A stretch of 64,000 nt of DNA from Halichondria panicea (taxonomy: Eukaryota; Porifera; Demospongiae; Suberitida; Halichondriidae): positions 265,001 to 329,000 of the forward strand of contig NC_087392.1 in the NCBI RefSeq assembly GCF_963675165.1, given 5' to 3'. The notes under the pieces are model-generated. The model searched no databases and was not told the DNA's origin. It worked only from the letters and a program-made list of their open reading frames with translations. The position numbers were made by a program, and so were the translations under genes. This document shows positions 2,286 through 54,713 of this stretch, piece after piece (within the stretch, counting starts at the first letter, position 1; every line of letters begins with the position of its first letter).

Positions 2286-20485
<18,200 letters not shown>

Positions 20486-23800: not shown

Positions 23801-26344
23801 AGACACATTCATCTCTGCACACACAGTGTATATAAGCATGGAGACGGTGGTAAGAGACAGACAAACACTCACTGATAAAACCAACATCCACAAAAGAGAC
23901 GTTGAAAGCGAGGAGAGCAAGGCGATCCAAGCATATTAAAATCTCGGACGCCACTTCCACTCTCTCTGCCTGTGCAAAGGAGCACACATGTGTACAATAC
24001 AGTATTGTTTGCGGTCATGGCTTACTGCTGGTAGCTTCTTGGTGTTCTGTAGAAGCCTTGCCAGTGCTCTCAGCATGGCCTAGGGACATAATTATTGTAC
24101 AGATTACATTGTTTAAATCATACGATTTATATACAAGTGTTGTTATGATTAGAGGGGCGCCTTATTAATTACTCACCTCAGGGTCCAGTGTCAAGGGGGG
24201 TCCTGACAACACCCTGGTGATGATCTCCTCCAGTATCTGCATAGCTGTCCTCATGTCCTCTTCCTTCACCAGCTCTAGCATGGCTGAGACAGGGTCAGCT
24301 GCCTCTGTACCCACGGATACCCTAGTAGTAGCAACTGCTGTGCCTGCTTCATTTGTAGCTGTAGAGACGGCCATCGTGGTAGCTTCTTCTGTAGACGCGG
24401 CCATCGTAGTAGCTTCTTCAGTGGTGGGGGCCATCGTAGTAGCTTCTTCAGTGGTGGGGGCCATGGTGGTAGCTTCTTCAGTGGTGGGGGACATCGTAGT
24501 AGCTTCTTCAGTGGTAGCTTCTTCAGTGGTGGGGGCCATCGTGGTAGCTTCTTCAGTGGTAGCTTCTTCTGTAGACGCGGCTATCGTAGTAGCTTCTTCA
24601 GTGGTGGGGGCCATGGTGGTAGCTTCTTCTGTAGACGCGGCTATCGTAGTAGCTTCTTCAGTGATGGGGGCCATTGTGGTAGCTTCTTCAGTGGTGGGGG
24701 CCATTGTGGTAGCTTCTTCAGTGGTGGGGGCCATCGTGGTAGCTTCTTCAGTGGTAGCTTCTTCAGTGGTGGGGGCCATCGTGGTAGCTTCTTCAGTGGT
24801 AGCTTCTTCAGTGGTGGGGGCCATCGTAGTAGCTTCTTCAGCGGTGGGGGCCATGGTAGTAGCTTCTTCAGTAGTGGCGGCCATCGTAGTAGCTTCTTCT
24901 GTAGATGCGGCTATCGTAGTAGCTTCCTCAGTGGTGGGGGCCATCGTGGTAGCTTCTTCAGTGGTGGCGGCCATCGTGGTAGCTTCTTCAGTGGTGGGGG
25001 TCATCGTGGTAGCTTCTTCAGTGGTGGCGGCCATCGTAGTAGCTTCTTCTGTAGACGCGGCTATCGTAGTAGCTTCCTCAGTGGTGGGGGCCATCGTAGT
25101 AGCTTCTTCTGTAGACGCGGCTATCGTAGTAGCTTCTTCAGTAGTGGCGGCCATCGTAGTAGCTTCTTCAGTGGTGGGGGTCATCGTGGTAGCTTCTTCA
25201 GTGGTGGGGGCCATCGTGATAGCTTCTTCAGTGGTGGCGGCCATCGTGGTAGCTTCTTCAGTGGTGGGGGCCATCGTAGTAGCTTCTTCAGTGGTAGGGG
25301 ACATCGTGGTAGCTTCTTCAGTGGTGGCGGCCATCGTAGTAGCTTCTTCAGTAGCTTCTTCAGTGGTGGCGGCCATCGTAGTAGCTTCTTCAGTAGCTTC
25401 TTCAGTGGTGGGGGCCATTGTGGTAGCTTCTTCAGTAGCTTCTTCAGTGGTGGCGGCCATCGTAGTAGCTTCTTCAGTAGCTTCTTCAGTGGTGGGGGCC
25501 ATTGTGGTAGCTTCTTCAGTAGCTTCTTCAGTGGTGGGGGCCATTGTGGTAGCTTCTTCAGTGGTGGGGGCCATTGTGGTAGCTTCTTCAGTGGTAGGGG
25601 ACATCGTGGTAGCTTCTTCAGTGGTGGCGGCCATCGTAGTAGCTTCTTCAGTAGCTTCTTCAGTGGTGGGGGACATCGTGGTAGCTTCTTCTGTAGCTTC
25701 TTCAGTAGTGGGGGCCATCGTGGTAGCTTCCTCAGTGGTGGGGGCCATCGTGGTAGCTTCTTCAGTGGTAGCTTCTTCAGTAGCTTCTTCAGTGGTGGGG
25801 GCCATCGTGGTAGCTTCTTCTGTAGACGCGGCTATCGTAGTAGCTTCCTCAGTGGTGGGGGCCATCGTGGTAGCCGCTTCTGAACTTTGGTCACTATCCT
25901 CAGAGCTTTGGCAATTATTTGGGTTGGAGCTCTGACCATTATTTTGGTTGGAGGAGCCTTGACCATTATTTCGGTTGGAGCATTGACCGTTATTTTGGTT
26001 GGTACCTTGCCCGTTATTGTGGTTGGTATCCTCAGAGCTTTGGTCACTATCCTCAGAGCTTTGGTCACTATCCTCAGAGCTTTGGTCGGTATCCTCAGAG
26101 CTTTGGTCGGTATCCTCAGAGCTTTGGTCGCTGGCTGATCTAATTGTCCTGTACTCTGCATCTCCATCAAGTCTTCGGTGCACATCACGATGTTCACTCA
26201 CTGCATAAACAGAAATATAGAATGAGACAGCACATCATACAAATTCAGTAGAAAGCTTTTACCCCCAGTGGAGGGACCCCCTGCATAGGCACTAGCCATG
26301 GCAACCAGAACAAGTAGAACAGAAACACTTGAGTACATTCTCAT
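20829..26344 (-). CDS. Adhesion G-protein-coupled receptor with Thr/Glu repeat stalk
   Basis: Exon 1 (26263-26344) encodes a signal peptide (MRMYSSVSVLLVLVAMASAY). Exon 2 (24177-26200) encodes about 675 residues: DQSSEDT repeats, NQNNGQ repeats, then a long stalk of TTEEATTMAP-type units. Exons at 24026-24079, 23873-23969 and onward to about 22850 form a short GAIN-like region. The GPS follows (CTCTHPSHIAVLL, codons near 22690-22730) with TM1. TM2 (HVQLCLSLIAYQLVFVTAID) lies near 22430-22520, TM3 at about 22100-22240, TM4-5 at 21820-22030, TM6 at 21420-21560, TM7 (QGLAVFSMLVLF) near 21290-21335. The tail ends at TAA 20829-20831. The start at 26344 suits the signal peptide and the TATA box just upstream; the in-frame ATG at 26395 would lie upstream of the likely transcription start. 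Subfamily and ligand cannot be assigned. The GPS is atypical (HPS instead of HLT/HLS). Confidence 0.88.
22270..22410. repeat. Partial foldback repeat in aGPCR intron
   Basis: GGCCATAACTTTAGTTCCGT followed by TGTTCCAATAACGTTAATTT, then ACTTTCTGAAAGATTAGGAA, matches the left arm of the dispersed foldback family. The right arm is missing. Confidence 0.6.
23250..23645. repeat. Foldback repeat family copy in aGPCR intron
   Basis: Contains GCCGAAAAATGACAAATTAT, ACACATTATTTGAAAGGTCT, CTTTCTAAGCTTTCAGAAAA and the right-hand arm ATTGGATCAATGATACTAAA followed by GTTATGG and a poly-C run. A second set of motifs (GATTTTCTGAAAGCTTAG) lies at about 23355, suggesting a nested or tandem copy. Confidence 0.75.
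24360..25880 (-). repeat. Coding 30-bp minisatellite (aGPCR stalk)
   Basis: Roughly fifty 30-bp units encode TTEEATTMAP, TTEEATTMAA, STEEATTIAA and close variants, interspersed with shortened EEATEEATT units. Length changes are multiples of 15 or 30 bp, so the frame is always kept. The dense Thr/Ser suggests an O-glycosylated, negatively charged stalk. The opposite strand has a 572-codon open frame through the same repeats, which I take as a shadow. Confidence 0.93.
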
Positions 26345-30662: not shown

Positions 30663-33600
30663 CTAGCTTTTCCTGACCCTCACAGTGTAGTGATGGTCGA
30701 ACCACTCGTCCACCACGTCACCAGTCTAAAGGAGAGAATAACGCAGTGATAATCATTGCTATGACAGCAGCCAATACTGCACCTACCCTGTATCCAGTAG
30801 TGCACACATTGTAAGCAATGGGCAGGTGGTAGTTGTGCACACCAGTTTGTAGGAATGGCTCCACACACAGCCTGGAGGGACTCACCCACACACGGTACTC
30901 ATCCCGTATATGCCCCGCCTCAGGCTTATAACCTATAGCACAGTGAGGGGAGTGACAGATATGCCTCACCACCACCACAATGGCCTACCTTGAGGGATCT
31001 CTGTACCTAGTAGGAGCTTAGCCGGGGGGCACACTGTCACAAGATCCATTTGTTGGTACATTTCTGGGGCTTCTTCCTCTCCCTCGTTCAAGAAACTGAT
31101 GGCACCTGTCAACGATTAGATAGTGGAACAATGGTGCAGCTGTTGGATGATGGTTGTGCGTGTGCGTACCTGTTTCTTCCAAGCAGAGGATATAAAAGAA
31201 TAACTGCTTGTCTGAGAGAGCATTGAACTGGACATTGATCACACCACCTTCGTCCACATCCATGGCTTCTCCTGAGGACAAACAGAGCACGGGGCAAATG
31301 GATATAATAATCAAGGTAAACCAAGAAAGACAGTTACCGTGTGTGTTCCCGTGAAGCTGTAACTGTACTCTAGTGTCTCCAGCATCAGACATCATGGGAG
31401 GGGGTGGTGTTGGGGAGGGGTTTTCCCCAAACTTAGTAGGCTGGATGGTCACCATGGACGCAATAATTGGTCGCTGAAACGCATACTTCCTCGGATACGA
31501 AGAAGTGAAGGAATCTGTTTTAAGAATGGGAAACTGTGTCTCCAGACACACAACCAGCTCCTTCACACCTGTGAGAGCTGTAGCAACAAGTGGGTGGTCC
31601 ATCACAACCATTCAATCAGCAGTATCAATATCATTATTACCGATAAACTCTATTTTATCGAGACTAGTTGCCATGCCGAGGTGAAGAGCCATCTCCCCTC
31701 CTCCGCCTACACCATTCCAGGTGAGCTGATGAGTGTCCAACGTGAGGCAGCCATTCTTGGCAATGCCAGGCTTCAGTGACCATGCAGGAATGAACGGCCA
31801 GGGTCTGTTCACCCACAGCTGGTCCACATAACCTGACAGAGGGGGTGGGCTGATGAATACAATAGCAACTCTAGACACACTCACTCACCACTCTTTGATT
31901 TGGGTCTCTTGGCCTTCAGTTTAAAGGTGATGGAGAATTGTGCCTCAGGGTCAACTGTGTTCAGCTGGAACACAATGAAGCCGGCTATTTCATCTGTGGC
32001 CAAATCTAAGCTGGGTTTTGAACAGTCAACAACTTTCTTTAGAATGGTCTTTCTATATGTGACAGTTGCCTCTTTCACAAATTTGGAGTGAGTGGGGTCA
32101 CCTGCACAAAGACACATCTAGTAATACCTTGTATAATAAATACTAGAGACATAAATTAAAGAAATCTCTCAATTTCCTTTCATTTCACCTCTCAACTCTA
32201 CAGCAGTAATGATTCTATTCTGTTTGAATTGCACAGTCAAACTGGGAGTACGATCTGCCTTGGCGGGGGTCCAGAATTGAGGGGGGTCAGTGAACTTTAG
32301 AATAGCCTCGTAACCTAGTGACGACAGATGAACGCCCACACAAGAACTCCGGAATATCTCAAATTCTCGACACAATGGTGCAGCTGTCGATAATAGCGGC
32401 CGAGCTGTTGGAGTGTAGCAGAGTATTGATATATGAATAGTACTCAATTATCTGGCAATTAGTAGCTAGGATATTGATTGTTTCAAAGACAAAATATAAT
32501 TAACAAATAATGTACAGACATACCCACAGTCAGAGTATTGATGTATGAATAGCTACAATGTAGGGTATTGATTGTTTCAAAGACAAAGCAAATTAAATAA
32601 GGTACTACGAATAATAGACATACCCACAGTAATGAAGCAGTCATGTGACAGGTGGGGTGACCTCTGTCGAGACTTGAGACCCTTGACGTACTTGAATCGT
32701 GCAATAATCTCTGCCCAGGACAATCCACCATTATACACACACACACACACGGTAAGGATGGCCTACCTAGCATTGACTTGACCTTCTCCATGGATGATGA
32801 CATCATGGGATATTTGATGTCTCCTCTCACATCCTTCACATGATACACTTGCTCCACAAAACTCACAACTACCGCAGCACTGCACACACACACACATAGA
32901 CACATACTCCATAAAAATAATCTGCTAGCAGTCAAAGCTGGATTCCAACCATCGTAGAAGCTTTCCGTTTGATTGTGAGTTGAGGGTGTGCGACTGATAA
33001 TCCTTGCCCACCCCTACCTTTTGTACACCATTCAAACACACAGTACAAGGCTGATTTGTACAGACATTAATTTTTGTGCTATAGAAACAACAGATTTGTA
33101 AGCTTTGCTGATTGAACTTAATGCTACTAACAGGTGTACACAGCCCCCCTCCCCCCACTCACTCACTTGGTCTCCTGGGGGACGTAGGCTAGGAGATTAG
33201 AGCGCTCCTTGATATACGTCTTGAGAGTGTTGGTGTCCCCACGCTCTAGTTCCCGTGGATACACAGCCAATCGCTGGTGGAGGGGAAACTTCTTCCTTGC
33301 CAGCACGAACTCCAGACCTCTACTCACTCCACACAACTCACCCTGTGATCATAACATCACACAATCAATAGTACACTTGTAGCCTGAGAAGAACAAGTTA
33401 TGCTCTGGTGTGGTTGATGGATGGACACACGTGTAGCTAGGCTAGGATACCTTGTATAGTTCTGTGAGTGTGTCCAGGAGGCGTGTCCAGTCCCCCTCGT
33501 CAATCACGCCCACACAATGTAGGTGGAAGGACTCTGTGACACGCCCACTCACTCGTACCCTCGGCCGCAGAACATGAAACAACTCCAACTGGTCCCCTTG

Positions 33601-36570
33601 GATAAGGCCGGCCATCGTACCAGTGGTCAGCTGTGAGGAGTGTAAGATGTGTGAAATGTGATGGGAGTGGGCGGTACCTTAACACTATTGACAAACATGT
33701 CATCTCCGGAGGTAGTCCTTGTGAGGTCAGCTCTGAAGGCTTGCTGGTTAGGTAGGGAGGTCTTGTCCAGGAAGCAGCGATCCATGGCCCCCTAATAATG
33801 AAAGGACAATGAACACACAGTGAGTGTGATGGTGTACGTCTTACCGCCATGGCGGGTATGAAGAGAGGGTGAAGACGACCATTCCCACTAGAGTGCCAAT
33901 AGAAGGACACAGCCTCATAGAGGGAACGATGACTCACCAACTCTTCTTTGTTCCTGTGTGGGTGTTTCAGTTACCACCAGTTGAGGCCGTGAGTGCTTGT
34001 ACAGTTATGGATACTACACAGGAACTATACACACCCACTCACTTGAGCACACACGAGACGATTGCCTTGGTAACGGTCTCAGTGAGCAACCCCAGTGGTG
34101 ATCCTATTCCTCTCCCCTTCGGTCCTCTGCTATCAGCTATGGCTGCTGGGTCTGGCTGAAGGTACAGCACCACGGTATTAGCCTCAGGCGACACCAGAGG
34201 CAGCCACGGACTCTCCATAATCTCCACTTGTGAGACCTGACGTGTCTTATCATAGGATACAGCGTGGGAGGGGTCAGTGTCGATGAGGATGGTCACATGA
34301 CTCCCGGGCATCTCCCGTACCCACTCAACCAGGTCACTGCACTCGATACTGTCCAACTGTAGGGAAGTGATGGTGATGTGTACAGTTGAGGTAGACACAC
34401 AACATACCGATAAACGCCCAAATTTGGATGCATTTGTTCTCAGCACTGCTCCACTGTATAGGGAGCTTCCCCCCGTCTAATGAAAGGGACTTACTCTCAC
34501 GATAAGAATAAGAACACAGACCACACCCACCTTTATCGGGAACTGTATGCCAGAGAGGAACAGGAACACTATCGCTTCATCCATACACTTGCTTGCCACC
34601 TGAGAAATAAACCTCTCAGTGATGACCTTTGCCCTCTTGTCTTTACCCTCCTTGGCAGCTCTCGGAAGCTGGTCATCGTCAATATTTGTATCGAAGTGGA
34701 TCACGTGGAAATCTTTACTGGCCAGCTGTCTCTTCAACGTCTCTCTGGACGATTGAATAATAAATGATGCATGAAAACAAAAACAAGTAATGCATTCTTT
34801 ATGCATAATTATGCATACAATCAATTGTCACTACAACTCGACAATTTAGCCACCCATCCCCCCACACATACCCACACACACACCACCCCCACCCCCACAC
34901 CTGTGCTCCTTCACTGGCTGGTCGAACTGCATCGGCTCCAGACTGGTGGGCAGTCCGTTCCTCGAGAGGTAGTAGTCCGCACTCACAAACACAGCCACCT
35001 TCTCTGTAAAGAACCCATAAGACCCAACAACATACTGTGGGTAACCACTGATAGTAATAAGTACACAGTGGGTACACAGTGGTAAGATACCACAGATAGC
35101 ATTTCCCAAAAGATCTCACCATGTTTTCCTCCCCCTGACTGAACTGGCTTCTTCATTACCATCGAACCCTGAGGGGCTGCATTAAACAAGGCAAACTGCA
35201 TTAACCTGTTTCTGACAAAATTCGACAAAAAAATACAAAATTATTTTCCGAAAATAGGACAATAAGCAAATCAATGGCTTACATGCTAATAACAGTTCTC
35301 CAGCTTCTCTATTGACGGGGGATTCTTTAAGAGACTCAGCGAACTTGACCATGAAGCTGAGCTCCTTATCCAGTAGTAGGTCCAGCAGACTCTCCGTCTG
35401 GGTCTCCGTCTGGCTCAGGTAGTCTGCATCCTGTTTGGTGATCACCTGATGTTTGAGCAGCGAGGGTAGTAATGCTGGTACATTGATCTGATCCACTAGA
35501 GTGTCGCGGTGCCTCAAGATGCGCTGGTGAACCTCTTGACCAATCACTTTATCTCTCCTCTCCAGTTGCAGGATCTCGATACGGTCACTCTGACTGATGA
35601 GGTCCCTCTGAGGATGCTCCTTAAAGAACTTCTTCACTGCCAGTGGTGCATGGATATAAGTGGAGGCAGTACAATACTGTAACATTATAGGCCTAGGCTT
35701 TAACTAGGATTGGCACTTCTGTACCACTTTTCATTTATGTACATGTATCAAGTGCCAAAAATCAATTATCACATGTGGAAGAAGAAATTTCTATGAGAAG
35801 GTTACCTTCTGCAAACAATATTTCAGACAGCTTCTCATGGCCTGGATTTGGAAGGTCTTTCTGCAGAGCTGACAAGAAGCTGATGAAGCCGCGTGTGCCG
35901 TGCATCTCCAGCATAGGGAACAGTCTCTCCAGTGTTTCCTTGAGAGTGCGATCATTGTTCTGTAGGTCGAGGAAAGTGCTCAGTGGTATAGCCTGTAGTG
36001 TTAGCAGGGACTTGAGCAAAGAGACAAGGTTGATGCTACGGATGATGGATGAGAGCTGACCCTCTAGTATGGTGAAGAGTGGCGACTGCAGCTGACTGTC
36101 CACTAACTCTCCTTCCAATAGACGTAATATCTCAGCATGATTGGGAGTCTCTGCCTCACGCAGTGAAGCTATGAAGCCATCGATGGCAACTTGTCCTTTT
36201 TGGTAGAGAAAGCTCAACAGAAAGTTAGACCTCTCAAACTGAGTATGATGTTTCGCATCAGATACTTTCTTAATGATTTCTTCGGTGAGTATTCCTTTTT
36301 CTTTGAGAGGAGGAAGCAGCTTGGCTATATCAATGAGCTGCAACACTTTAGCATTCTGCTGACGAACTTCTTCCACTGTCACCTGGGCCCCTGCAGAGGA
36401 CAGATCAATATTAATGGTATCACCATGCACATGGTATTTCACAGCACCCAAGTGCAGTACCTATACCCCCGGACCCTCTGATATGCATGCAACATTGTGT
36501 ACAAAACTTGCTTCTACATCTATCCTCACACAACAAGCTGGCAGCTATGAATACCTTCAGTAGAGCTCAT
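30663..36570 (-). CDS. Triple-CARD, caspase-fold pseudoenzyme, discoidin-like protein
   Basis: Twenty-one GT-AG exons, all in phase, give 1,229 residues from ATG 36568-36570 to TAG 30663-30665. Residues about 12-98 and 107-198 are CARD-like helical domains; residues 237-318 (HRDTLVDQINVPALLPSLLK...) are a clear CARD. Residues about 338-579 have the caspase/C14 strand order: VAVFVSADYYL, DFHVIHFD, DEAIVFLFLSGIQF, SHVTILIDTDPS, then GLLTETVTKAI. The catalytic His slot (SGH) is SGI at 433, and the Cys slot (DAC) is DTD at 466. Residues about 815-943 resemble F5/8 type C (FWTPAKADRTPSLTVQF, RIITAVELRG, VKEATVTYR). Segments 580-814 and 945-1229 are unrecognised. CARD proteins assemble by homotypic contacts; a dead caspase fold suggests a scaffold or inhibitor. 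Name and partners are unknown. Confidence 0.85.
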
Positions 36571-36682
36571 CTCAGGCTTTGCTCATTCTGGTCTCGCATC
36601 AGATTTGGTAGCTAAAAAACTGGGGCCTGCTAATCCAATTATCGATCTAAAGAGGCACACCTCCGCTATTGTCAAGAGGGAC
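36571..36682. promoter_or_regulatory. Bidirectional promoter interval, CARD gene / TPGS1
   Basis: Only 112 bp separate the two divergent start codons (36570 minus, 36683 plus). No TATA box is evident. Shared regulation is inferred from spacing alone. Confidence 0.5.
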
Positions 36683-38382
<1,700 letters not shown>

Positions 38383-46485: not shown

Positions 46486-49400
46486 TTAGTGGCTGTGTAC
46501 ACCTGTCTTGTCCTGAGATCGTGTGGTGGCATCTCGTTTACCAGAGCCAGATCGGCTTGAATCAGAGGTGACTTTGAAGGAAGAAGTCCGCAGTGAAGAT
46601 TTCTGTAAGGAAAATATAAATACAATGATAGAGGCTAGTAACACAGAACAGTCTAGCAATGGTACATAGGCATATTGGGAAACTGGGAGCAAAATAACAA
46701 GTGTCTTCTCTCTTTCTAAGGCAGGAATTACTGTAGGTACATTCCAACCAACTCTCGAGGGAAGTGCTAATCCTGGGGCAGTTTCAAAACGAAACCACGA
46801 CATGACGGATAGCATTCATCTACCACAGAAGCAACACGTGCACCCCACAACACAGAGGGCACGCTGACGTATCTGTGGCACCACACCCCTTACTGTAGTA
46901 GTCATTGTATTCTAGAATAAGGGCCAGTGTGAACACAATGATGCAGTACATCAGTACATACATGTATGTATACATGTGAGCTTAAGGATAAGAGCAACAC
47001 TAACAATGGCACATGTTTTGATGTACATACATTGATTCTGAAGTCTTCGAGTGTTTTGTAGTTGGCCAATATCTTTGTCAATTCTTGGTCAATTGTGAAA
47101 ACTCGTTTTCCCTGCGAGAAAACAATGATTTTTATCATCATCATCAATTAAACTCTGTACTAAACATGAACATAACATAACATGAACAGGTGGGCATGTA
47201 CACACACACACAAACCATACCTTGTAATATTTGAGGAAGGCCCAGAACTTCTCTAGTCCATACAGAGAGCCAGTGGCATAGTCCTTGAGAGCCTCACTCT
47301 GGAAGTCAGCTAGTACCTCTTCTCTGAAGCGCTTCTCTAGTCCATAGCTGTAGTACCTGAAGAGACACTCCAGACCATAGCGATAGCCACTGGAAGCGTC
47401 CTCCAAAGCCAGAGAGTGGAATTCCTCATACATCTTCCTACAAGGGAAACAAAACAGGTGTAAATACAGTCCAGTATATGTGTGTATACAGGCATTGTGT
47501 ACAGAGCAGGCAATTACTTATTGAAGTGAGTTCTTAGAAAGAAGGACCAGAATCTGAAGAGAGTGTTCATCTCCTGCGACTGACCAACTCCAAGTCTCTT
47601 GCGTTCTGGATAATGAAAGATATTATTATTATTATTTTATTATTATTATTAGTGGTACCTTTGAGGCAGTTGTGTCTGTACTTGTGATACTGTTGCTGTT
47701 TGAACCCGTTAGCCTTGAGCAGCGAATGAGAGGGATGTTGGAATGTAGGGATAGAGTGGGCGGATGGTGACGTGCTGGGACTGTGTGGAGGGAGGGGGCG
47801 GTTATTGGAGTGTGTGTGTGTGGTGTGTGTGTACCTTGAGGAGGGGCCAGAAAGCGGTCGTTGTTGCGATGATGATGGGGGCTTGTGAGGGGACATAACC
47901 CAACCAACATGACTCTCAACTGGAGGGTTCTGACTGTATTTGGTCTTCTGTGTGTTCTTAGGAAACTGGGAACAAATAAAACTGTCAATACAATGCTATA
48001 ATAGTCGTAAAATAAGTGTCTTCCCTCTCTCTAAAGCAGGAATTACTGAAGGTACATTCCAACCAACTATCGAGAGAAGTGCTATCCTGGGGCAGTTTCA
48101 GAACGAAACCACCACATGACGGATAGCATTCATCTACCACAGAAGCAACACGTGCACCCCACAACACAGAGGGCACGCTGACGTATCTGTGGCACCACAG
48201 CTACATGTATATATTCTATATACATACCTTTGAGGGTGTTTCCTGTTTGTAAGGCACAGGGTAGAAGCGTGGACGCATCTTCTCCTTGCCTTCTCTTGAG
48301 GGGGTCTTGGGCGGAGTCAGGCTCTCTGTCGTGGGAGTGGGCGTGTCTTCTGTATCAAGCGAGAACACAAGGTCAGAGTCCGTCTCTGCTCCTCGTTGAC
48401 TATCAAATTCTTCCTGACTGATCACATCCACTTTATTGCGAGGCTGGAGATACAGGGAGTCAACACGCACACACCCACAATGGCTGACTTACCTTGCTAA
48501 CAGTGTGTGAAGAGTCGGACACCTCACTGTACAAATCTTGTTCGTAGTAATAGAGGCCGTCGTTGATGGCTTGTGCCAAGTCTGAAGTGATCTTAGGGCG
48601 AGAAGTGAAGTTGCTAGTTCTATCCCCCCCAGGGTGTTTGCTATCCCCCCCAGTGTGTTTGTTGCGATGATAGGCGGGAGTCTGAGTAACTATGATGATC
48701 TTGCCAATGTCTTCCTCATCCATCTCATCTTCAGACACATCAGACCTAGCGGACACACAGAGGTCAATTAGTGTACACATAAAGGTCAATTAGTGCACAC
48801 ACTCACCATGGCTGGTCTGAGAAGCTGTGCACTTTGCCCCCTAATTGGAGGTCGTCATCAAATTCAAAATCCAGCTCATCGTTCTCGTTCAGTCCATCAG
48901 AGTTTGTAGTACCACTCTGCAGGAAGTATGTGGGCAGTGTACACCACACCAATGACAATGACAATGACAATGACAATGCTATGTAGATGCACATGGAGAT
49001 AACAATTCTAAATAATACACATGCATATCCAATGCAATAATTATTATGCAATACAAAATATACCTTAGTTTCGTTTTTTAAGACTTTTTTCTTTCTCTGT
49101 ACTTCTACCCAGTCTTCTTTTATAGCCTCCTGTTGAGGGGGTTCCCCTGTAGGTACCACCTCGTTAGTGTTGGGGTCACTGGACTCTTGCGCTGACTTCT
49201 CCGACTCAGCCTATAAGAGCACATGTACTTGTGTGGCCTACACACAGCAATCAGTCTCACCACATTCTCCACTGGAGGTTGTGTCTCCTCTGGTTCCTGA
49301 GGTACTAGCTGATCCTCTGACATCATCTCTGGATCAGCGTAGCCTTCTTGAGGGTAGTACATGCCAGAGGGGGAGGCAGGCCCATCACTCTGCTCATTAG

Positions 49401-52091: not shown

Positions 52092-52670
52092 ATTCCATTT
52101 CTTTCGTCTGTGTGTATTCCAAGTTTATATAGTAACCCTTCCAAACACTATCATTGCTTGGAAGAATGCTCTTTACTTGTGTTGGGCTTGTTTTCTGTAC
52201 TTGTGAGTTCACACCAAATATCAAACAGTTGGCTTTTTTGGTACTTCTTTGGCTCAGGTAGTCGAATAAAATACTGAAGACTTGGTTGTAGAGTGTAGAG
52301 TACTTGTCTTAGTTCGTGGGAGAGGTCAGCTAGTAGAGAGAAAGAGCTAATGGTGAGAAAAACACTACAGACTTCCCTTGCATCATTCCAGGCACATGGT
52401 TCTTAGGAACATGTGCTTTCTGGGCATGCGCAGTACGTTTAAGCGAGGTGGAACCCCTCAGGCTGCACGCTGCAGTTCTCCAAGGCAACAGCAATAGCAC
52501 CACAACAAAAAGATGGAGTTCTGATCCTCTGTACTCTGTAGACGCTTGAGGCAAACTGACTGGACTGCAGAAAAACAAACTACCCCACGGCATATTTTTA
52601 ATATCAAAGGTAAATTTTCTTTGATCGTTTTTTGCTTGCATTGACCTCCACCCCCTTTTCTGCAGCTAAA
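52092..52670. promoter_or_regulatory. Divergent promoter region LARP1 / IFT81
   Basis: 579 bp between the two start codons. A 3' splice site TGCAG at 52661-52665 precedes the IFT81 ATG by five bases, so IFT81 probably has a non-coding first exon in this interval. Nothing else is recognisable. Confidence 0.5.
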
Positions 52671-54713
52671 ATGACTGAACAACTTCGCCTCATAGTGGAC
52701 ACTCTGAATCAACCACCATTCTCGAAACAATTCAATCTCGTCACATTTGACTCTCTGAATTCGCTCAACCTACTGCAAGTGCTCAACGATGTCCTCGCTG
52801 AGATCAGTCCTGACCATCAAATGGACCTCCGTCAAGAACCTCCCGAGCAAACTGCTGTTAGGATTCTTAGTCTCCTCCACGTTCTACGATACAAGCCAAA
52901 GAGTGATCAAGGAGGTGGTCTAAATGCATTTCGTCATGGATTGCTGTTGGGCAATAAGCCGACAATATATCCCTTGCTACAGTGGCTCCTGGAGAAGCTA
53001 CCAGAGTTAAAGAAAAGGGCCTACCTTGCTCGATATCTAGTCAAGATCGAATTACTTCCGGAAATGCTACAGGACGATATTGTTGCTGAGGCTAATGCAA
53101 ATCATGAAGAGCTTGTTGAACAGTTCAAAGAGCTGCACCACACCATAGAGCAGCAGAAGGCCTCACAGTTTAGTGTGGCAGACATTAAGAAGGACATTGC
53201 TTCCATGGAGGAGGAGAAAGAACAGCTCATAAAGAGGACAGAGCGACTGAAAGCCAAGGCTGAGACACTGCCCAATAAAGCTGAGATGCTGGAGGCAGCC
53301 ATGAAGCTGAGGAGAGAAAAAGATCGAGAAATAACACTAACTGAACAGAAACTAGAGCAAAAGAACTCATTTCTCCACGCACAAGAAAAAGTATCTCGAT
53401 TACAGAAACAACTTGAGGACATGAAAAGCTCGAGTGATGGTCTATCTGCCGAAGGATTGATCTCTAAACTACAGGAAGAAAACCACCTCAAGCAAATGCT
53501 AGTCTCTGAAACCCTACCAAAGAAGGTGGAGGCTAAACGAAAGGAGTGTATTGAGTTGGAGCAAGTCCTTGCCGAGCCTGTACTGAACGACCTGGACCTC
53601 GATACTATACGACAGCAAATTGACGAGTGTACTGAAGAGGTGGCTAGACTTATGGAGAAACGACTGCCAGGAAGTGACCCTGTACAAGACAAGCTAGCCC
53701 TGTTTCGACAACAAGCCTCCATTATTGCTCGTAAGAAAGAAGCTGCTGCCGAGAGCTATAAATCAGTGATGGACGAGCTAGCAGCTCTGGAGTCTGAGTT
53801 ACAGTCCAAGCGAGAACAACTGAACAAGTTTGATGGCGGGGAAATTCTAAGAGAGGAGGAATTCAAACGCTACCTCGCTAGATTACGTGTCTCAAACAAC
53901 ACTTACAAGAAAAAGAAGTCAGAACTTGGTGCTCTGAAAGCTGAGTATGGAGTCCTTGCCCGTACAGAGGAAATCCTGAGATCTCGAGATGAAAATGTGG
54001 AGGAGCTGGTCAAAATTCTCGAAGAAAAGAAAGGTGTCCGCGGCTATAAACAGACGCAAGATGCCCTCGAGGAAGTATCGGTAGCAAAGAACGAACTAGA
54101 CGAACAAAAGAGTGAGATATTAACGGCAATGACTAGCCAGATTGAGCAGCTGACGGCAGCCATTGAAACCAAGAAGGCATTCCTCTCTCCCCTCATCAAA
54201 GAGATTCGACCGTTACGTCAGAACCATCAGGAACTGTTAGCTCAACACGCTGAGAAGAAGGTTGCTTATGACGGAGTGGCTGCTGGGCTGGAGGGTCAAA
54301 GGGCAGACCTGGAGCGAGAGGTACGAGCATACTGGGAGGAAACAATGGCTGAAGAGAGTCGCTACCACTATCTACAGTGTATGATAAAGTCCATCAAGCT
54401 ACAGCAGGAGAGAGTGGCGGCTGAGATGCGATGCTATGTCAGTTCTGACCCGGCTGAGAAACGCAAGTCCCGTCGAGATCTGTTCACTCGAAAGATACAG
54501 GAGCAAGAAAACTTGGGGAAGGGTCTTCGTGACCAGCAGAAGGAGATTCAAGAGACCCACAGTGATGCCCTGCGACAGGTCAAGATGTGGCAGGATCTGA
54601 GACGTCAGTTCAAAGTGAAGAAACAATGTTTTGTGTCTGACCAGCAGCGGCGGATGAGGGACAAGGCTGAGGAAAAGATGGCTGCCACTGAGAACAGACT
54701 AGTCATTACTTGA
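52671..54713 (+). CDS. IFT81: IFT81, intraflagellar transport complex B tubulin-binding subunit
   Basis: One uninterrupted coding exon of 680 residues (human IFT81: 676). The N-terminal calponin-homology-like domain includes FNLVTFDSLNSLNLLQVLND, MLSLLHVLRYKP-type LSLLHVLRYKPKSD, and PTIYPLLQWLLEKLPELKKR / AYLARYLVKIE, close to human IFT81. The rest is long coiled coil, with LALFRQQASIIARKKEAAAE, EEFKRYLARLR, EEKKGVRGY, EESRYHYLQCMIKS and a tail QENLGKGLRDQQKEI. I chose ATG 52671 because it sits just after a 3' splice site and aligns with the family start; an upstream in-frame extension to 52632 crosses that site. IFT81 pairs with IFT74 to carry tubulin into cilia. Being intronless is odd among these intron-dense genes. 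Confidence 0.97.
   Translation: MTEQLRLIVDTLNQPPFSKQFNLVTFDSLNSLNLLQVLNDVLAEISPDHQMDLRQEPPEQTAVRILSLLHVLRYKPKSDQGGGLNAFRHGLLLGNKPTIYPLLQWLLEKLPELKKRAYLARYLVKIELLPEMLQDDIVAEANANHEELVEQFKELHHTIEQQKASQFSVADIKKDIASMEEEKEQLIKRTERLKAKAETLPNKAEMLEAAMKLRREKDREITLTEQKLEQKNSFLHAQEKVSRLQKQLEDMKSSSDGLSAEGLISKLQEENHLKQMLVSETLPKKVEAKRKECIELEQVLAEPVLNDLDLDTIRQQIDECTEEVARLMEKRLPGSDPVQDKLALFRQQASIIARKKEAAAESYKSVMDELAALESELQSKREQLNKFDGGEILREEEFKRYLARLRVSNNTYKKKKSELGALKAEYGVLARTEEILRSRDENVEELVKILEEKKGVRGYKQTQDALEEVSVAKNELDEQKSEILTAMTSQIEQLTAAIETKKAFLSPLIKEIRPLRQNHQELLAQHAEKKVAYDGVAAGLEGQRADLEREVRAYWEETMAEESRYHYLQCMIKSIKLQQERVAAEMRCYVSSDPAEKRKSRRDLFTRKIQEQENLGKGLRDQQKEIQETHSDALRQVKMWQDLRRQFKVKKQCFVSDQQRRMRDKAEEKMAATENRLVIT

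Follow-up and report, generated by a model that had tools for sequence, protein, structure and literature searches.

The gene described here lies on the minus strand of a 64,000-nucleotide stretch of the Halichondria panicea genome (contig NC_087392.1, positions 265,001 to 329,000; hereafter the window, in whose numbering all coordinates are given). Its predicted product joins three N-terminal CARDs to a probable caspase-like domain with both catalytic positions substituted as aligned, followed by a weakly indicated discoidin-like domain. Judged from sequence, this architecture would be that of a death-fold protein with an inactive caspase, here in combination with CARDs. The explanation that we favor, and that we hold with roughly even confidence, is that of a non-catalytic CARD protein that would act as a scaffold or brake in immune or cell-death signalling, in the manner of c-FLIP and not as a protease. 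The features on which this reading is built are listed below.

30663..36570, minus strand: complete gene model, 22 exons, 1,259 residues (GT-AG introns, phases maintained; start codon uncertain)
36122..36364, minus strand: CARD1, residues 15-95 (Pfam over cut-off, helical model, hhalign)
35849..36067, minus strand: CARD2, residues 114-186 (hhalign to CARDs of the same genome)
35320..35526, minus strand: CARD3, residues 238-306 (Pfam over cut-off, hhalign)
33851..35001, minus strand: probable inactive caspase-like domain, residues 339-605, exons 5-9 (hhalign to 43 C14 domains; no library match)
34546..34554, minus strand: SGI, residues 436-438, at the catalytic His position (profile alignment; SGI also in relatives P0007 and P0008)
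34273..34281, minus strand: DTD, residues 492-494, at the D-x-Cys position (profile alignment; DTD, DID or DTE in five of five relatives)
31890..32403, minus strand: putative discoidin (F5/8 C)-like domain, residues 831-973 (sub-threshold Pfam match over residues 870-919, at 32288-32052)

CARDs, caspase-like domain and catalytic positions

The presence of three CARDs, already proposed in the first-pass annotation of this stretch, is supported by the present analysis. CARD1 and CARD3 match the Pfam CARD model (PF00619) above its 23.9-bit cut-off, with 32.4 bits for the former and 31.3 and 30.8 bits for the latter; the Pfam scan gives no match for the CARD2 stretch. Against an hhalign profile built from 10 of the 27 CARD matches in the same genome, CARD1, CARD2 and CARD3 scored 38.3, 23.1 and 34.2, respectively, and for each of them none of the 200 shuffles per query scored as high. 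Two control stretches from the same protein reached 10.1 and 9.5. The AlphaFold model of exon 2 (mean predicted local distance difference test score, or pLDDT, of 54.5) contains twelve helices arranged as two sets of six and is usable for its first half only. The six-helix death fold is modelled with fair confidence for CARD1 (block means of 62-85 in pLDDT) and with low confidence for CARD2, whose half lies almost wholly below 50. A Foldseek search with this model returned mostly CARDs from the PDB (best E value 0.13, probability up to 1.00), with no match at E <= 0.001, designed proteins within the top three, and no indication of which half was matched. The whole protein, compared with the PDB by phmmer, gave weak matches only, to CARD8 and RAIDD (E 0.83 and above).

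Residues 339-605 probably adopt a caspase fold, although this is not certain. Using hhalign, we aligned this segment end to end (214 columns, score 32.4) with a profile of 43 C14 domains, 23 of them from the same genome and 20 from bacteria. Neither the 69 decoys (maximum 21.1) nor the 300 shuffles (maximum 29.8) included any that reached this score; the decoys comprised 63 from Escherichia coli proteins, many of which are alpha/beta enzymes by name, and six windows of the protein itself. The bacterial C14 set alone gave a score of 30.3, with none of the 69 decoys as high, while the other subgroups scored 20.1 (non-canonical own-genome members), 27.9 (bacterial and non-canonical) and 23.5 (bacterial and canonical). 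In sequence, the domain appears to be nearer to bacterial caspases of the orthocaspase or metacaspase type than to the canonical animal caspases.

The own-genome part of the 43-sequence profile represents 23 of 33 C14 matches, 30 of which had loci and three of which were without a locus. The loci omitted were L037 and L040 (repeats of L036 and L039) and L049, L053, L055, L057 and L058 (partial). For the bacterial part, 20 of 27 matches were included; L081 was kept, and the omissions were L095, the two matches with no frame (L101, L103), and the four whose frame lacks HG or D-x-C (L090, L092, L099, L100). The His and Cys motifs are present in all 20 bacterial members.

Several results weigh against the caspase assignment. 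No caspase match for the domain was found in Pfam (including Peptidase_C14, PF00656), NCBIfam, PADLOC or the PDB. The hhalign alignment to the 23 caspases of the same genome is collinear but weak, with a score of 17.5 that 19 of 300 shuffles equalled or exceeded, and for the metacaspase-like subset of these sequences 49 of 300 shuffles were as high. The canonical animal caspases of this genome align over 28 columns only (score 16.3). With the bacterial set, one of the 300 shuffles scored higher than the real query, and a query supplemented with its relatives scored 29.8 against all 43 sequences and 22.9 against the bacterial set, the latter below the best decoy (23.4). The AlphaFold model of exons 5-8 read through the introns was uninformative (mean pLDDT 30.7); the folding alignment A3 omitted P0005 and P0008. 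The caspase/C14 fold named in the first-pass annotation therefore stands in a weaker form than stated, being significant only with the 43-sequence profile and having no counterpart in the libraries.

In the profile alignment, the Cys column falls on D494, and the His column on I438 or, in the other register, on S436, with His at neither. The His-Cys dyad that characterizes Peptidase_C14 is absent, and the loss of both catalytic positions claimed earlier is upheld, with SGI and DTD relocated from residues 431-433 and 464-466 to residues 436-438 and 492-494. Since both positions are substituted as aligned, the domain is predicted not to cut. A search with exon 8 yielded five public proteins (61-99% by the search's own figure), which are 69-98% identical over the covered part; P0001, the one at 98%, may come from the same species as the window. 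At the D-x-Cys site these relatives, P0001 to P0005, have DTD, DTD, DID, DTE and DTD, respectively. All six sequences (the window and the five relatives) thus carry D or E and no Cys at the nucleophile position. The search with exon 6 gave three proteins, of which one (P0006) is the window's own and the other two are at 73-78%. None of the three sequences compared at the His position (the window, P0007 and P0008) has His, and SGI is maintained in P0007 and P0008. The listings for the exon 8 and exon 6 relatives show no Pfam domains. The loss of the dyad is shared by the relatives wherever they cover it, while the sequence is conserved, which suggests a non-catalytic role that has been kept rather than decay.

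The relatives of the gene are few in the collections searched. A homologue search with the whole protein returned none at E <= 0.01 among the 7,991 candidates scored, and exon 8 had no relative in the viral contig or genome contig collections. Within the same genome, the best candidates scored included the gene and, on contig C3, a partial copy that has decayed, and no full paralogue was seen among them. The decayed copy corresponds to exons 14-15 (L028, 4445-4751) and is about 80% identical over 254 columns, with frame breaks. P0005 lacks exon 6, its exon 5-like piece running straight into an exon 7-like one, which may reflect a rearranged copy or an assembly error.

Discoidin-like domain and gene model

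A discoidin-like domain at residues 831-973 is weakly indicated. The Pfam F5/8 C model (PF00754) gave E values of 0.0034 with the whole protein and 0.0021 with the piece, corresponding to 18.0-18.6 bits, under the 28.2-bit cut-off. We constructed two F5/8 profiles of our own, and neither comparison was significant: 13 of 300 shuffles were as high with the first profile (seven of 11 own-genome matches), and 26 of 300 shuffles and 13 of 91 decoys were as high with the second (nine of 10 bacterial and four of 11 own-genome matches). What had been annotated as an F5/8C-like domain thus retains a Pfam E value of 0.002-0.003 in its favor, but the match stays under the cut-off and neither profile confirms it.

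The gene model runs from 36570 to 30663 and comprises 22 exons encoding 1,259 residues. The reading frame is open in every exon, all 21 introns (47-287 nt in length) have GT-AG boundaries, and the phases are maintained. The exon ends were picked by eye using phase and GT-AG rules, so this agreement is a matter of consistency and not independent proof. The gene appears to be real, is well supported at this level, and is predicted to form one transcript unit. An earlier description of the locus as one gene of 21 exons and 1,229 residues agrees with this model on phase but was wrong in both counts. Exon 7, which is apparently absent from that description, is maintained in the relatives P0003 and P0005, and its omission fits the earlier spacing of 33 residues between SGI and DTD, as compared with 56 here. 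Two small candidate first exons were found in the 610 nt searched, and the start codon is therefore uncertain. The remaining features of the gene are as follows.

34476-34408, minus strand: exon 7, 23 residues, apparently absent from the earlier 21-exon model (sequence kept in P0003 and P0005)
36555..36570, minus strand: candidate first exon, 16 nt with ATG (no homology support)
36488-36467, minus strand: alternative candidate first exon (no homology support)
32625..33791, minus strand: residues 608-830, exons 10-14 (nothing beyond chance in Pfam, NCBIfam or PDB)
30666..31832, minus strand: C-terminal residues 974-1259, exons 17-22 (nothing beyond chance)

Neither residues 608-830 nor residues 974-1259 gave a match above chance in the Pfam, NCBIfam or PDB searches. 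An open frame on the plus strand (36551-36808) is oriented head to head with the CARD gene and overlaps its candidate first exon, and a join of the exon pieces of this frame has a Dpy-30 match in Pfam that is sub-threshold only.

Proposed role, alternatives and known systems

As a non-catalytic scaffold or brake, the protein would be expected to reside in the cytosol, where its three CARDs would enter assemblies with receptors, adaptors or caspases that also carry CARDs. The caspase-fold domain, with an acidic residue in place of the nucleophile Cys and no His, would not cut; instead, it might occupy caspase-like or substrate sites in the CARD assembly and in this way tune or block activation. 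The discoidin-like and remaining C-terminal regions may contribute to localisation or ligand sensing. The genome searched (131.5 Mb in 39 contigs) contains at least 33 C14 and at least 27 CARD exon matches, and the corresponding proteins could be partners. The C14 matches, found on contigs C11, C14, C16 and others, range from canonical-looking (QACRG, QACQG) to metacaspase-looking (GHG, DACRG) sequences. The nearness of the domain to bacterial caspases counts against this role, as it lowers the likelihood that the protein pairs with animal caspases in the way of c-FLIP. The idea of a CARD-nucleated scaffold or decoy, put forward in the first-pass annotation, remains the best-fitting one in view of the three CARDs and the conserved dyad-less domain, although the caspase call is weaker than was assumed and the discoidin match is sub-threshold.

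A fuller version of this proposal, to which we attach only tentative belief, takes the protein for a counterpart of c-FLIP that has CARDs and a caspase-fold domain of the bacterial orthocaspase type. It would unite death-fold assembly, a dead caspase with a conserved acidic residue in the nucleophile position, and an intracellular discoidin-like sensor in one protein, whereas the described bacterial systems distribute such modules among genes. To our knowledge, the control of active caspases by inactive ones belongs mainly to vertebrate DED signalling. If the proposal is true, early animals used inactive caspases to control CARD assemblies, independently of the DED/c-FLIP system found in vertebrates. 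A conserved version with CARDs in a sponge, and with a domain nearer to bacterial caspases, would bear on the origin of caspase regulation.

Two alternatives concern the identity of the domain and of the gene. Residues 338-607 could form some other alpha/beta domain (TIR-like or Rossmann-like, for example), the reading of SGI and DTD being coincidental. Such a fold would accord with the lack of a library match, with the 19 of 300 shuffles that score as high against the own-genome caspases, with the one decoy that outscores the relatives-added query against the bacterial set, and with the uninformative AlphaFold model. However, no decoy (of 69) and no shuffle (of 300) reaches the score of the end-to-end alignment to the 43-sequence profile, and the Cys column lands on the strand end with DTD; a TIR domain was also considered, and the Pfam scans contained no TIR match. 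We regard a different alpha/beta fold as unlikely. The exon model might also have merged two adjacent genes or included a decaying one, as could be supposed from the in-frame ATG near which exon 10 begins and from the rearranged look of P0005. Yet the introns between exons 8 and 12 are 47-108 nt long with no gap, the exons are open throughout, and the sequence of exons 6, 7 and 8 is conserved in public proteins, which leaves a merged or decaying gene very improbable.

The other two alternatives accept the domains and assign them a different task. MALT1 consists of a death domain, Ig (immunoglobulin) domains and an active paracaspase. By analogy with MALT1 and BCL10, the fused CARDs and paracaspase-type domain could serve as the core of a constitutive signalosome with an NF-kB-like output and no proteolysis. 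CARDs are indeed combined here with a non-canonical caspase domain, whose nearest sub-profile is the bacterial one (30.3), followed by the non-canonical own-genome one (20.1). In contrast to the active protease MALT1, both catalytic residues are lost, and the Pfam scans revealed neither a death domain nor an Ig domain, although a very diverged Ig domain could escape them; a platform of this type seems to us quite unlikely. As an intracellular pattern sensor, the protein would bind glycans, lipids or proteins of an invader through its discoidin-like and C-terminal regions and transmit the signal through its CARDs, the dead caspase being no more than a structural relay. The Pfam E value for F5/8 C argues for such a sensor, as do bacterial fusions of death-like domains with NPCBM and the associated caspase-coding neighbourhoods, which are read as invader sensors in a passage of PMC8195603. 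Against it stand the discoidin match itself, which is under the cut-off and was confirmed by neither of our profiles, and the C-terminal region with no match above chance, and we consider the sensor a doubtful candidate.

Comparison with described systems helps to place the preferred reading of a CARD scaffold or brake. In CARD-containing initiator or inflammatory caspases, the CARD lies N-terminal to the caspase fold. Unlike them, the present protein contains three CARDs and lacks both the catalytic Cys and the catalytic His, and it hardly resembles the canonical caspases of its own genome. The caspase domain of c-FLIP (CFLAR) is canonical. The protein resembles c-FLIP in joining death-fold domains to a caspase domain without catalysis, but it does not combine DEDs with a canonical pseudo-caspase: CARDs are found instead, and the canonical profile aligns over 28 columns only. 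According to a passage of PMC8195603, c-FLIP consists of a DED and an inactive caspase; unlike c-FLIP, the present protein has CARDs, is larger, has extra C-terminal regions, and contains a domain that appears nearer to bacterial caspases.

Among bacterial systems, pseudo-orthocaspases carry Tyr and Ser at the dyad positions (PMC6426788). The likeness lies in a caspase p20 domain that has lost the His-Cys dyad, and bacterial caspases provide the nearest sub-profile; the difference lies in the residues, which are here Ile (or Ser, depending on the register) and Asp or Glu, and in the fusion to CARDs in an animal gene. A plasmid search with an own-genome metacaspase gave no match. Bacterial death-like domains are fused to discoidin-fold NPCBM lectins, and related NPCBM domains occur in caspase-coding neighbourhoods (PMC8195603). 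These resemble the present protein in joining a death-like domain to a discoidin-fold domain (here putative), but their modules are spread over several genes, the NPCBM family differs from F5/8 C, and the match here is sub-threshold. The same source describes proteins of the Amphimedon TRADD-N expansion, which have one to three death-superfamily domains at the N-terminus and whose variable C-terminus can include a caspase. The protein shares with them the N-terminal death-superfamily domains and a C-terminus that can hold a caspase; no TRADD-N match was obtained in the Pfam scans, whose library may not contain a TRADD-N model. Among the open-licence PMC matches listed, there was no report of an architecture combining CARDs, a dead caspase and a discoidin domain. 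The matching passages of PMC12909245, PMC2575513 and PMC11797021 describe CARD and caspase genes in other animals without this combination.

Surrounding window

Several other features were observed in the window. A (TG)n run, about 298 units long (37044-37638), lies in the plus-strand neighbour region upstream of the CARD gene, and a 54-bp minisatellite occupies 14331-18019 with 68 copies and 99% matches. An open frame of 689 residues on the minus strand (24165-26234) is rich in TEEATTMAP-like repeats and has a mucin-like look. The neighbours recognized by Pfam are a LARP1 piece (47089-47517, minus strand), IFT81 in one open frame (52614-54713, plus strand), and a cytochrome P450 (61400-62953, minus strand).

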